Assembly (NCBI RefSeq): GCF_013426975.1
Contig: NZ_JACCPY010000007.1
Location: forward strand, 1-64,000
Source of the DNA: Sphaerotilus sulfidivorans
GTDB taxonomy: Bacteria > Pseudomonadota > Gammaproteobacteria > Burkholderiales > Burkholderiaceae_C
Direction of reading: 5' to 3'
DNA length: 64,000 nucleotides
Shown: in pieces, positions 11,698 through 20,306 of the stretch
How the letters are laid out: every line of letters begins with the position of its first letter
Numbering within the stretch: the first letter of the stretch is position 1
Translations under genes and position numbers: made by a program
The notes under the pieces: generated by a model
The model's database searches: none
The model's input: the letters and a program-made list of their open reading frames with translations, nothing else
What the model was told of the DNA's origin: nothing

Positions 11698-13605
11698 GTG
11701 GCCATCTTTCCACAGGGATACCAGAACATCGCGGCGCGTTGCCGCAACACGGAGGACGGTGGCGCCGAGCGGCGCGTGCTGCGGCAGCTCCAGCGCTGTC
11801 TGGAGGACGACTACCTCGTCTGGCACAACGTGCCGGTGGGCAACAAGGGGCGCCTGCCGGACTTCGTGGTGCTGCATCCGGGCCGCGGCCTGCTGGTGCT
11901 GGAGGTCAAGGGCTGGCGGGCCGGCGCGCTGCACCAGGTCTCGCGCCACGATGTCGAGCTGAACCTGGCGAACGGGCAGGGGCGGGTGAGCCGGATCCAC
12001 CCCGGCCTGCAGGCGCGCGGCTACGCGATCGAGCTGGTCAACCAGATGCAGCGCGATCCCTGCCTGTGCCAGACCGAGGGGCGCCACAAGGGCAATCTGG
12101 CCGTGCCCTGGGGCAGCGGCGTGGTGTTCGCCAACATCGAGCGCCAGCGCATCACCGATCCGCACTGGGACGAGTTCTTTCCGCCGGCCACCACGCTGAC
12201 CCGCGAGGATCTGGCCGAGGATCTGGATCCGGCCGTCTTCCAGGAACGGCTGTGGGGCATGTTCACGGTGGAGTTCCGCCTGAAGACGGCGCTGACGCTG
12301 CCGCAGCGCGACCGCATCCGCTGGCACCTCTTCCCCGAGATCCGGCTGCAGACGCAGGCTTCGCTGCTGGACGATGACGACGCGAGCGGGCCGGGGGCCA
12401 CGGTGGCGCCGTCGCCGAGTGAGGCGCTGATGCTGGTGATGGACCTGCAGCAGGAGCAGCTCGCGCGCTCGATGGGCGAGGGGCACCGGGTCATCCACGG
12501 CGTGGCCGGGTCGGGCAAGACGATGATCCTTGTCTACCGCGCCCAGCAGTTGGCCGCCGCGGCGCGACCGGACTGGCCGATCCTGGTGCTTTGCTACAAC
12601 CGGCCGCTGGCGGCGCGCATCGACGCGCTGATGCGGCAGCGGGGGCTGGACGAGCGGGTGCAGGTGCGGACCTTCCACGGCTGGTGCTACGACATGGCCG
12701 ACACCTACCAGCTCGGCATCCCGAAGAAGGGCTTCCGGCCGGACTACGACGCGCTGGCCGACCGGGTGGTCGAGGCGGTGGCGCATGGCCGCATCCCGCG
12801 GGCGCAGTACGCGGCGCTGATGATCGACGAGGCGCACGATTTCGAGGATGCGTGGCTGCGGCTGGCGCCCCAGTTGGTTGATCCGGCGACGAACTCGCTG
12901 CTGGTGCTCTACGACGACGCGCAGTCGATCTACCGCCAGCCGCGCCGCAAGTTCAGCTTCGCCAGCGTCGGCATCGAGGCGCGCGGGCGCACGAGCGTGC
13001 TGAAGGTGAACTACCGGAACACGGCCGAGGTGCTGAAGCTCGCCACCGCGACCGCCGGCCAGTTGCTGCGCGGCGGCGAGCCGGACGGGGTGGGCGAGGG
13101 CGACAGCGACATCGTCCAGCAGACCCCGCTCGGCGCCGGCCGCAGCGGCCCCGCGCCGGAACTGCTGCGCGGACGCACGCCGCGCGAGGAGGCCGAACTG
13201 GTCGCCGACCGCCTCGTCGATGCGCTGGCGGACGGCGTGTCACCGGCCGACATCGGCATCCTGGCCCGCCGGCATGACCTGCTCGACCCGGTGGAAAAAG
13301 CGCTGCACCTGCGCGGCATCCGCACCCAGCGCCTGCAGCGCGCGGGAACCTGGGAGCCGGACAGCGTCAAGCTCACCACGCTGCATGCCTCCAAGGGGCT
13401 GGAGTTCCACACCGTCGCCATCGTCGGGCTGCAGGCCGTGCCGGATGCGCACCACAGCGAGGAGGAGGAATGGCGCCTGCTGTATGTGGCGATGACGCGG
13501 GCGACGTATCGGCTGGTGTTGGGGGCTTGTGGGGAGTCGGGGGCGGTGGAGAGGGTTGCGGTTGGGGTAGGCAGCAAGGCGGAGTATTCTCCGGCTACGG
13601 CTTAA
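11698..13605 (+). CDS. NERD nuclease-domain / UvrD-like superfamily 1 helicase
   Basis: A 635-residue fusion. The N-terminal NERD domain (about 20-130) carries the PD-(D/E)XK-type residues P54-D55 and E69-V-K71. The helicase part has Walker A GVAGSGKT at 268-275, Walker B IDEAH at 376-380, a TLHASKGLEF UvrD/PcrA motif at 561-570 and the VAMTRA motif at 597-602. The expected activity is 3'-5' DNA unwinding or translocation coupled to DNA cleavage. The GTG start at 11698 has AGGGG 8 bases upstream. Base composition matches the host until the last ~40 bp, where it falls. The GHKL-nuclease gene begins 111 bp downstream on the same strand, so the two may work together. DNA repair is the alternative role. 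Confidence 0.85.
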   Translation: MAIFPQGYQNIAARCRNTEDGGAERRVLRQLQRCLEDDYLVWHNVPVGNKGRLPDFVVLHPGRGLLVLEVKGWRAGALHQVSRHDVELNLANGQGRVSRIHPGLQARGYAIELVNQMQRDPCLCQTEGRHKGNLAVPWGSGVVFANIERQRITDPHWDEFFPPATTLTREDLAEDLDPAVFQERLWGMFTVEFRLKTALTLPQRDRIRWHLFPEIRLQTQASLLDDDDASGPGATVAPSPSEALMLVMDLQQEQLARSMGEGHRVIHGVAGSGKTMILVYRAQQLAAAARPDWPILVLCYNRPLAARIDALMRQRGLDERVQVRTFHGWCYDMADTYQLGIPKKGFRPDYDALADRVVEAVAHGRIPRAQYAALMIDEAHDFEDAWLRLAPQLVDPATNSLLVLYDDAQSIYRQPRRKFSFASVGIEARGRTSVLKVNYRNTAEVLKLATATAGQLLRGGEPDGVGEGDSDIVQQTPLGAGRSGPAPELLRGRTPREEAELVADRLVDALADGVSPADIGILARRHDLLDPVEKALHLRGIRTQRLQRAGTWEPDSVKLTTLHASKGLEFHTVAIVGLQAVPDAHHSEEEEWRLLYVAMTRATYRLVLGACGESGAVERVAVGVGSKAEYSPATA

Positions 13606-13716
13606 GTTTATTAATATCGGCAACCGAATTGGTGGTTTGCGATACTTTAATTGATGCGGTTGTATTTCACGAATCCGGAAGCGGTTTGTTGATTTTGTAA
13701 TTCAAATGGGGGCGAC

Positions 13717-15684
13717 ATGGAACAAGTATCACTGCTGGAAGATCAGTCTTATCTCTACGATAAGAGGTTCCTGAATAAATATGCGGGAAGTATTATAACT
13801 GACCCGTCCACGGCAATCGTTGAACTGGTTGCTAACTGTTGGGATGCCTATGCTACTGACGTTCAAATCACTCTTCCTGACAGAAAGCAAGGCAGGAATT
13901 TCAAGATTGTTGATAACGGCAAGGGTATGACTCGAGATGAGTTTGCCTTCATTTGGCGAACATGGGACTACAACCGAATTAGCGCTCAAGGTCAAAGCAG
14001 TGAACCTCCGCCAGAGGTTGATGGCGTTCCAAGGACAGTATTTGGTAAAAATGGCAAGGGCCGATTTGCCAGTTTCTGCTTTGCCAGTGAGTATCTGATA
14101 ACTTCCCGAAAGAATGGTCAAGAGTTTGTTTGCAAAGTCAGCAGAACCTCGACTCGCCCCCTTGTTCTTGAGGAGGTTTCTTTCAAGGCCGAAGGTGTGG
14201 ATGGCCACGGCACCATTATCCAAGGTACTGGTGAAATTCCCTATCTTCAGTTCGCCGAGGAAAAAGCGAGAGAGGTGCTTGGCGGTCGCTTCCTCGCGAA
14301 CCCCGCTTTCAAGGTGTTTATTGGCGGCCGAGCAATAACTTTCAATGATATACCTGAATATCTCAGCAAGGCAGAGGTTGAGGTTCAAGGCTTTGGCACG
14401 GTAACCATTCTGCACATCGATACTAAAAAAGCAGACAAGACCACAAAGCAGCATGGCATCGCTTGGTGGGTGCAGGACCGAGCCGTAGGACAGTGTAACT
14501 GGAGCGCGAGCGACTATTCACGCATCCTTGATGGGCGAACCACCGAGGCTAAAAGGTTTACCTTCATCGTGAAGGCTGATTTTCTCAATGAACACGATGC
14601 AGTCAAGGAAGACTGGAGTGGTTTCAAGGAAGACTGTGATGTTTGGTCAAAGACCAGAGCAGCCGTCCAGGATCGCATTTGTCAGATTATTGATGGCACC
14701 AGCAAAGAGGAGCGAGCCAACACCAAGGCGGCAGTGAAGGATAAAGTTGGAAATTCCATCAACAAGCTATCGCCTATCAGCAAAGAGCGAGTTACGACTT
14801 TTGTCGATGAAGTGGTTGATACCTGCCCAAACTTCGGGGAAACGGAAATAGTCCAGCTGACGACTATACTTGCCAAATTGGAGCAATCAAAATCCCGCTA
14901 TGGATTATTGGATATATTGCACAAGTGCGAGCCTGACGACTATGACAAGCTGCATGAGATATTGGCTGAATGGACCATTGGGATGGCAAAGCTGGTTCTT
15001 GATGAAATCCAGAATCGCCTAAGGCTTATTGGAGAACTTCGGATCAAACTTCAGAAGGTCGGCATTGATGAAGTACATGAGCTTCAGCCTCTTTTTGAAA
15101 GAGGCTTGTGGATGTTCGGCGCACAGTTCGAATCTATCGAGTTTACATCGAATGTTGGGATGACTCAGGTCATCAAAACAATTTTCAAGGATAAGGTAGG
15201 CAAAGGCACTAGGAATCGGCCTGACTTCGTCGCTCTCCCTGATTCCAGCATCGGTTTCTATGCCCGTCCCTCTTATAACGATAACCATGATGAAGATGGA
15301 GTTTCTCATCTGGTAATCATTGACTTGAAGACCACCGGCCTAGCTCTTGGAAGCCAAGAAAAAGGGCAGGTTTGGAAGTATGTCAAGGAGCTTCGTGATC
15401 GAGGATATCTCAAGCCTACGGCCAAGGTTGATGGCTTTTTACTTGGTGACAAGATTGAACCTGGTGAGGCGGAGCCTAATTTGCATGGGGATTTTGTGAT
15501 TATTTATCCGATGCTCTATGACACTATCTTGGTACGCGCCGAAAAAAGGCTCTTGAACCTTCATAAGAAAGTAAAGGATGCTCCTTTCCTACTTGAGCAG
15601 CAGGAGTCCCTAAGGTCATTTATGCAACCCGTTCAGGTTACTCAGATGGAATTGGCAGAGAGCGTAAGCTCCCCCTGCAAGTAG
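13717..15684 (+). CDS. GHKL (MORC/MutL-like) ATPase with C-terminal PD-(D/E)XK nuclease signature
   Basis: A 655-residue protein. The N-terminal GHKL ATPase has the N box ELVANCWDA (E36, N40, D43), G1 box DNGKGM at 66-71 and a glycine-rich lid FGKNGKGRFAS at 109-119, resembling MutL/MORC/Hsp90 ATPases. A mostly helical middle (about 310-480) follows. The C-terminus carries P502-D503, then D536-L-K538 and Q551-x3-Y555, which is the PD-(D/E)XK plus QxxxY pattern of RecB/Cas4-like nucleases. The gene is clearly AT-richer than everything around it, with common AAA, GAT and ATA codons, indicating recent transfer. The start at 13717 has GGGGG 8 bases upstream. A role in phage defence or DNA restriction is inferred. 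The nuclease assignment is from motifs only. Confidence 0.75.
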   Translation: MEQVSLLEDQSYLYDKRFLNKYAGSIITDPSTAIVELVANCWDAYATDVQITLPDRKQGRNFKIVDNGKGMTRDEFAFIWRTWDYNRISAQGQSSEPPPEVDGVPRTVFGKNGKGRFASFCFASEYLITSRKNGQEFVCKVSRTSTRPLVLEEVSFKAEGVDGHGTIIQGTGEIPYLQFAEEKAREVLGGRFLANPAFKVFIGGRAITFNDIPEYLSKAEVEVQGFGTVTILHIDTKKADKTTKQHGIAWWVQDRAVGQCNWSASDYSRILDGRTTEAKRFTFIVKADFLNEHDAVKEDWSGFKEDCDVWSKTRAAVQDRICQIIDGTSKEERANTKAAVKDKVGNSINKLSPISKERVTTFVDEVVDTCPNFGETEIVQLTTILAKLEQSKSRYGLLDILHKCEPDDYDKLHEILAEWTIGMAKLVLDEIQNRLRLIGELRIKLQKVGIDEVHELQPLFERGLWMFGAQFESIEFTSNVGMTQVIKTIFKDKVGKGTRNRPDFVALPDSSIGFYARPSYNDNHDEDGVSHLVIIDLKTTGLALGSQEKGQVWKYVKELRDRGYLKPTAKVDGFLLGDKIEPGEAEPNLHGDFVIIYPMLYDTILVRAEKRLLNLHKKVKDAPFLLEQQESLRSFMQPVQVTQMELAESVSSPCK

Positions 15685-15746
15685 ACAGCCGAAACCAGAG
15701 ACTGCGGCCCAGCCTGAAAGGATCGCGCCGATGAGGCAGCGCAAGT

Positions 15747-16108
15747 TCAGCGAGAACCGGACCGTTGCGATCCTGAAAGAACCAGCAGCCTTGCCGCAGC
15801 GATCCGCGCCCTGAAAGCCTCATCGAGCGTGGCCCAGTCGACCACGTCGACCCGCCAGGGCAGATCGGATTCGGAGAACGCCTCCGCCAGTGCGGCTTGC
15901 TCGTCCAGCGTGAGCGCATGGGCGCCGATCACGGCCAGATCGAGATCCGACCAGGGCTTGGGCGGATGCGCGCCGCCGCCGGCGCGTGAACCGAAGGCCC
16001 AGACTTCCCGTTCTGGCAGCAGCCGGGCCAGGATCTGCCGGACGAGGGCCAGATGGTGCGGCTCGATCGACAGCCGTGCTGCCAGAGCCGCCTCATCGGC
16101 CGGCGCGG

Positions 16109-16112
<4 letters not shown>
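15747..16112 (-). CDS. MNT-type nucleotidyltransferase (HI0073 family)
   Basis: A 121-residue minimal nucleotidyltransferase. It shows the pol-beta signature G41-S42-R43 followed by D56-x-D58 (WSDLDLAV) and a third carboxylate near D89 (VDVVD). Such proteins pair with HEPN/HI0074 proteins. In characterised pairs the MNT enzyme AMPylates or adenylates the HEPN RNase toxin and silences it. Its ATG overlaps the stop of the upstream HEPN gene by 4 bp, so translation is coupled. It converges on the GHKL gene with a 62-bp gap. Confidence 0.82.

Positions 16113-20306
<4,194 letters not shown>

Follow-up and report, generated by a model that had tools for sequence, protein, structure and literature searches.

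The 64,000-nt stretch of the Sphaerotilus sulfidivorans contig NZ_JACCPY010000007.1 that was analysed here (the window) carries, next to gyrB, a gene for a 655-amino-acid (aa) protein, P0002, in which an N-terminal GHKL ATPase is joined to a C-terminal PD-(D/E)XK nuclease signature. Upstream of it lies the gene for a NERD-UvrD helicase, P0001, and an earlier note on this DNA had proposed that the two act together as a nuclease-helicase defence pair. Both open reading frames (ORFs) were confirmed to be open and full length on the + strand, 111 bp apart. The locus contains the following features:

11698..13605, + strand: NERD-UvrD helicase P0001, an accessory gene of the gyrB-side locus and a neighbour outside the GHKL unit
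13606..13716, + strand: intergenic AT-rich DNA, 111 bp, 5' of the GHKL gene; the similarity of relatives stops at about 13557-13606
13717..15684, + strand: P0002, GHKL ATPase, transducer region and C-terminal PD-(D/E)XK nuclease, paraMORC3-like, 655 aa
13807..14148, + strand: GHKL ATPase domain of P0002, residues 31-144
15022..15681, + strand: predicted C-terminal nuclease domain of P0002, with E472, R501-P502-D503, D536-x-K538 and Q551-x3-Y555
15663..15746, no strand: right junction, where similarity to the genus relative G005 resumes (15663)
15747-16112, - strand: MntA-type nucleotidyltransferase
16109-16549, - strand: HI0074 substrate-binding gene, which forms with the preceding gene a pair also found in G001, G005 and G008
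16546..19149, - strand: gyrB, the right-hand anchor of a variable interval

An ATG-led fragment at 15731 probably resembles the start of an insertion sequence (IS) transposase. A promoter scan of 13400-16000 found two candidates against 2.1 expected, none of them on the + strand, and for that reason no promoter is proposed.

The domain make-up of P0002 was read correctly in the earlier note. Residues 31-144 match the Pfam model HATPase_c_3 (62.4 bits), and E36, N40, D43, D66, G68, G70, G110, G113 and G115 are invariant in 15 aligned sequences, as is T166 just past the GHKL domain. In the C-terminal part, the acid at 472, R501-P502-D503, (D/E)536-x-K538 and the Q551 and Y555 of the QxxxY motif were retained by all 14 domains in the alignment, even at identities as low as 24%, and the signature is therefore not due to chance. 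Residue 536 is D in P0002 and either D or E across these sequences. Both halves are under strong constraint at the protein level (rates of nonsynonymous substitution, dN, of 0.068 and 0.070 against the homologue at locus L026); the overall dN/dS is 0.039, with the synonymous rate (dS) near saturation.

The nuclease fold suggested for the C-terminus is supported by a predicted structure of middling confidence, whose best structural matches were Shedu and other PD-(D/E)XK nucleases. For the transducer region, structural rows of MORC2/3 and MutL cover residues 8-332, but with a root-mean-square deviation of about 11 over the long range. Foldseek results for the C-terminal model were not used alone as evidence: against the PDB nothing was found at E 0.001 (EndoMS was best at 0.06), and the one match in BFVD was a viral protein that is uncharacterised (3.9e-4). 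A search of PDB sequences with the C-terminal profile A5 (hmmsearch) returned two rows, neither of them a nuclease (best E 0.15). The NERD domain of P0001 showed no relation to the nuclease profile of P0002 (prob 2.8).

This architecture has been described for paraMORC3. In the available part of the account (Iyer, Abhiman and Aravind, 2008; PMC2292703), paraMORC3 proteins carry a GHKL domain, an S5-type region and a C-terminal restriction-endonuclease fold with an acid-D-(D/E)xK motif; some of the genes stand alone without conserved neighbours, and their spread is wide but sporadic. Compared with this description, P0002 likewise has an N-terminal GHKL domain with its ATP-binding motifs intact and, according to the middling-confidence model, a C-terminal restriction-endonuclease fold with the E-D-ExK residues, D instead of E standing at 536 as the first acid of (D/E)xK. 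Some relatives of P0002 also have overlapping HEPN-like and PIN7 genes, of which the available part of that account makes no mention.

P0002 is placed as a putative member in the paraMORC3 group because of two observations. The 14-member alignment A2 gave a full-length profile match to a Sinorhizobium GHKL protein (L048; 553 columns, E 3e-32), which passes the Shedu model SduA_C (27.9 bits against a cut-off of 27). The homologue L092 (identity 43% with the first A2 sequence, 41% with P0002) gave a weak SduA_C row (0.028). P0002 itself lies below SduA_C detection, with no Pfam row for SduA_C (DUF4263, PF14082) at E up to 1; because its own test was negative it was not classed as Shedu type I-D. 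Proteins about 60-88% identical to P0002 form a divergent GHKL-nuclease clade, which appears to link paraMORC3 to Shedu.

VcSduA, a Shedu type I-D protein, has been described as a one-gene anti-phage protein in which an ATPase residue and a nuclease residue are both needed for defence (PMC12137116, in the part available). By this description it is, like P0002, a single protein with an N-terminal GHKL ATPase and a C-terminal PD-(D/E)xK domain; P0002 differs from it in having no SduA_C match. VcSduA is regarded as the probable functional analogue of P0002. The GHKL gene is best explained, with a probability of roughly 0.7, as a self-contained defence gene of paraMORC3 type, acquired horizontally, whose product is an anti-phage (or anti-plasmid) DNA nuclease that would work like the GHKL-Shedu VcSduA, with the NERD-UvrD helicase independent of it. 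This one-gene defence reading is based on the domain order, the conserved ATPase and nuclease residues and the full-length profile homology to a GHKL protein bearing SduA_C. It is also based on the patchy spread of the gene, its defence-rich surroundings and its place in an interval of swapped cargo beside gyrB, which are presented below.

In MutL and MORC, ATP-driven closure of a dimer loads the protein on DNA. By analogy with these proteins, ATP would close the GHKL gate, so that two P0002 subunits clamp on DNA. In a state specific to invading DNA, the clamp would then license the C-terminal PD-(D/E)XK domain, and the licensed domain would cut that DNA.

P0002 could instead be a BbrUII/HgiDII-like type II restriction enzyme, now an orphan and formerly accompanied by a cytosine methyltransferase. 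The N-terminal GHKL region does resemble these enzymes, and the PADLOC model REase_II matches weakly, but the NCBIfam model restrict_BbrUII reached just 67.9 bits, far under its cut-off of 550, with its best stretch confined to residues 34-220. The ParaMORC3 protein of Escherichia phage PhiR44_1 (L047, 652 aa) is similar to P0002 in length and in its GHKL half (prob 98.3, E 1.1e-14), with a weaker match in the nuclease part (prob 66.9), and its gene adjoins one annotated Dcm. No such gene adjoins that of P0002, and none of the scanned neighbours in the window is a methyltransferase. In a Pantoea plasmid the weakly matching stretch overlaps an annotated cytosine methyltransferase, and methyltransferase-type genes lie near the homologues at L033, L035, L041 and L094; these methyltransferases differ in kind, which fits the company found in islands rather than a fixed pair. 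A restriction enzyme that has lost its partner is accordingly considered unlikely.

A self-contained defence gene is consistent with the spread of P0002. At E 1e-40, its own genome included, matches were found in 1 of 369 genomes sampled across the class, 2 of 398 across the phylum, 4 of 399 across the order and 9 of 399 across the family; these samples overlap, and three of the nine family matches cover the C-terminal part only. Among 60 genomes (its own and 59 relatives) the sole convincing match was in its own, and the gene was absent from 12 of 12 other members of the genus. Weak matches in four further genomes (E 7.6e-5 to 7.9e-4) fall within residues 22-142 and are taken to be MutL. Plasmid records gave 18 matches, of which nine covered at least 80% of the query. 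Viral contigs gave none when searched with P0002 alone and one with the alignment A1, at L099, where the GHKL gene lies beside a phage integrase.

The setting of the homologues is defence-like. PADLOC models were run on 19 hand-picked neighbouring genes from 12 of 15 loci (all but L031, L037 and L039), and 10 of the 12 had a match at E <1e-20; L029 was weak and L036 had none. The matches include DISARM, Drt1a with type I, type IIG, pAgo-associated and PifA-like genes, and several of them are to general ATPases or helicases. Two neighbourhoods are recorded here as separate observations. In a Rhizobium plasmid (L045, 5980-9385) the gene immediately after the GHKL homologue belongs to Shedu (SduA_C, 73 bits). 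In two species of one genus (L091, 8069-9817; L094, 7852-9816), GHKL genes 62% and 28% identical to P0002 apparently occupy the same site beside an MmeI-like gene.

The composition of the GHKL gene was correctly described in the earlier note as foreign; that of the helicase was there called mostly not foreign. The GHKL gene has a GC content of 0.472, and 0.498 at third codon positions (GC3), versus 0.705 and 0.920 for the helicase and a GC3 of 0.969 for gyrB. The 111-bp gap is AT-rich (GC 0.405). Nucleotide similarity (blastn) to G001, G005 and G010 stops at window position 13571-13572, to G008 at 13560 and to G012 at 13557, and gapped alignment extends this left-hand similarity to 13592-13606. 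It resumes at 15663 for G005 and at 15762 for G001, and the final codons of the GHKL gene sit in DNA common with G005. GC falls at 13571-13630 and recovers at about 15650. Given these junctions and the AT-rich DNA that begins at the helicase end, the GHKL gene seems to have come in with its own upstream DNA.

The interval into which it came is an active defence hotspot. Between the helicase 3' end and gyrB (window 13572-16545; L063-L068 in relatives), six genomes including that of the window carry six different cargoes, most of them defence-like. In G001 an RT_UG6 gene (1279 bits) is accompanied by a DnaG-like partner, and genes of DUF3800 and DUF3037 lie towards gyrB; G005 has the Septu genes PtuA and PtuB; G010 has a nucleotidyltransferase and a HepT-like gene. 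The cargo of G008 consists of a weak HipA-like match (19.5 bits, under the cut-off), a DUF3037 gene and a transposase, its nucleotidyltransferase pair lying on the opposite side of the helicase. G012 combines a transposase with a dGTPase-like ORF that may continue out of frame. Transposases were confirmed in L064 and L065. G004, in which about 1.5 kb is readable and no helicase was seen, has a HipA_2 gene (250.9 bits) adjoining gyrB, and two other GHKL homologues adjoin gyrB as well (L032 and the 30%-identical L093). At L064 (6110-6298) a second copy of the last 65 gyrB codons, 77% identical, lies 3' of the intact gyrB and is a possible scar of integration there. No description of this gyrB-side defence hotspot was found among the literature titles and beginnings of abstracts listed. 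The interval is a ready place to seek unknown systems.

The helicase was also characterised correctly in its domains, a NERD nuclease domain fused to a superfamily 1 UvrD-like helicase: residues 23-117 match NERD (40.4 bits), with P54-D55 and E69-x-K71 in place, and the UvrD N- and C-terminal domains follow in Pfam. NERD has been counted among defence domains (PMC10952713, in the part available). That P0001 might be a housekeeping helicase of this locus is not borne out, because it was present in just 16 of 60 genomes at E 1e-40, its own included. No helicase was found within 6-8.5 kb beyond the gyrB 3' end in G002, G003, G007, G009 and G011 (about 1.5 kb is readable in G004 and G006). The helicase, too, has probably been exchanged between species, since its dS against G008 is 0.080 (L064 9580-11496 versus window 11698-13605) and that of gyrB is 0.312.

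The two genes could still form one nuclease-helicase system acting as in Gabija. They lie on the same strand 111 bp apart; in Gabija a nuclease gene likewise adjoins a UvrD-like helicase, and P0001 matches GajB models (best 79 bits). P0001 scores far better, however, on the PADLOC model C3a187 'NERD+UvrD' (427 bits, best stretch 23-611), and the analogy fails for P0002, a GHKL and PD-(D/E)XK protein for which GajA models gave no match at E up to 1. The expected recurrence of the two genes as neighbours was not observed. Five genus relatives (G001, G005, G008, G010 and G012) have the helicase at the same locus and lack the GHKL gene; G001 has its helicase and gyrB on separate contigs, and there the genes to the left of the helicase identified the locus. 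Among the genes called in 15 GHKL loci none clustered with the helicase (blastp E 1e-8, with half the shorter protein covered), and none matched it in 16 further loci (blastp E 1e-5). A tblastn search at 1e-8 over L026-L047 and L089-L099 gave a sole, partial match at L030 (27.7% over 249 residues). Helicase homologues elsewhere, the paralogue in the same genome (L076) and that of G009 (L078), lack a GHKL gene within 19 and 14 kb of sequence, respectively, and the two window genes differ sharply in composition.

Three loci do weigh against the independence of the helicase. At L030 a UvrD-type helicase without a NERD match lies about 60 bp 3' of the GHKL gene (GajB-like 96 bits, C3a187 89.8 bits), at L034 a NERD-helicase lies 4.7 kb downstream, and at the plasmid locus L042 a gene annotated UvrD-helicase lies about 1.7 kb upstream. 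On balance, a joint system is very unlikely, and the NERD-UvrD helicase is probably an accessory gene in its own right that shares the locus with the one-gene GHKL nuclease. Adjacency inside a defence hotspot does not amount to co-function, and a tempting misreading is thereby corrected.

Do the relatives of P0002 act with other partners? Downstream DNA was compared in 16 loci in which the 3' end of the GHKL gene is present (L026-L032, L034-L036, L038-L040 and L089-L091). L033, whose gene runs to about 90 bp of the DNA end, L037, which has no 3' end, and the C-terminal-only L096-L098 were left out. In 4 of the 16 (L026, L027, L031 and L090) a gene of 248-250 aa begins on the GHKL stop. Its product carries R-N-x5-H, which we take to be the HEPN catalytic motif; Pfam HEPN matches that of L026 at no better than 0.041 and is absent for the other three, and L026 also matches PADLOC AbiJ at 5.5e-4. 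Decayed starts of this gene were found in L036 (read by eye) and L091. A PIN7 gene lies downstream in L089 (7.4e-20) and L090 (4.8e-19) and in part in L027. The arrangements are:

L090 8208-11332: GHKL, HEPN-like and PIN7 genes, the complete three-gene set
L027 10001-13192: GHKL and HEPN-like genes with part of a PIN7 gene
L026 10001-12705 and L031 10016-12714: GHKL gene with overlapping HEPN-like gene
L089 7304-10020: GHKL and PIN7 genes

Neither a HEPN-like nor a PIN7 gene lies downstream of the GHKL gene in the window. It is tentatively suggested, with the odds against it, that in the native form of the family a HEPN-like RNase is coupled in translation to a GHKL-PD-(D/E)XK sensor-nuclease, with a PIN7/Zn-ribbon RNase encoded after them. 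The DNA clamp would cut the invader and unleash both RNases, and the window copy would be a streamlined one-gene derivative. Such partners would make a testable multi-effector system. No description of a GHKL/HEPN-like/PIN7 operon was found among the literature titles and beginnings of abstracts listed; a link between HEPN and paraMORCs is not wholly new, because fusions of Ymh-type HEPN domains to paraMORCs have been reported (PMC3710099, in the part available).

The same overlaps, decayed starts and PIN7 genes, together with the ending of the window gene in DNA shared with G005, could point to a stripped remnant, that is, a copy that lost both partners on insertion and is now inactive. An intact HEPN-like gene is missing, however, from 12 of the 16 loci, and the window ORF is complete, retains every motif and shows the strong constraint seen against L026. 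This makes a remnant rather unlikely.

A few minor observations concern homologues of either protein. The NERD-UvrD paralogue in the same genome (L076 9336-11228, G000:C66) is 51% identical to P0001. Another locus of that genome (L077 6002-10507, G000:C98) encodes a 1501-aa ORF with NERD and protein-kinase domains, which is not a helicase. Lastly, ORFs at L097 (5981-6754) and L098 (6081-6773), in similar surroundings in two species, match the C-terminal nuclease only (residues 412-648 and 423-630) and are either a free-standing nuclease or a remnant.

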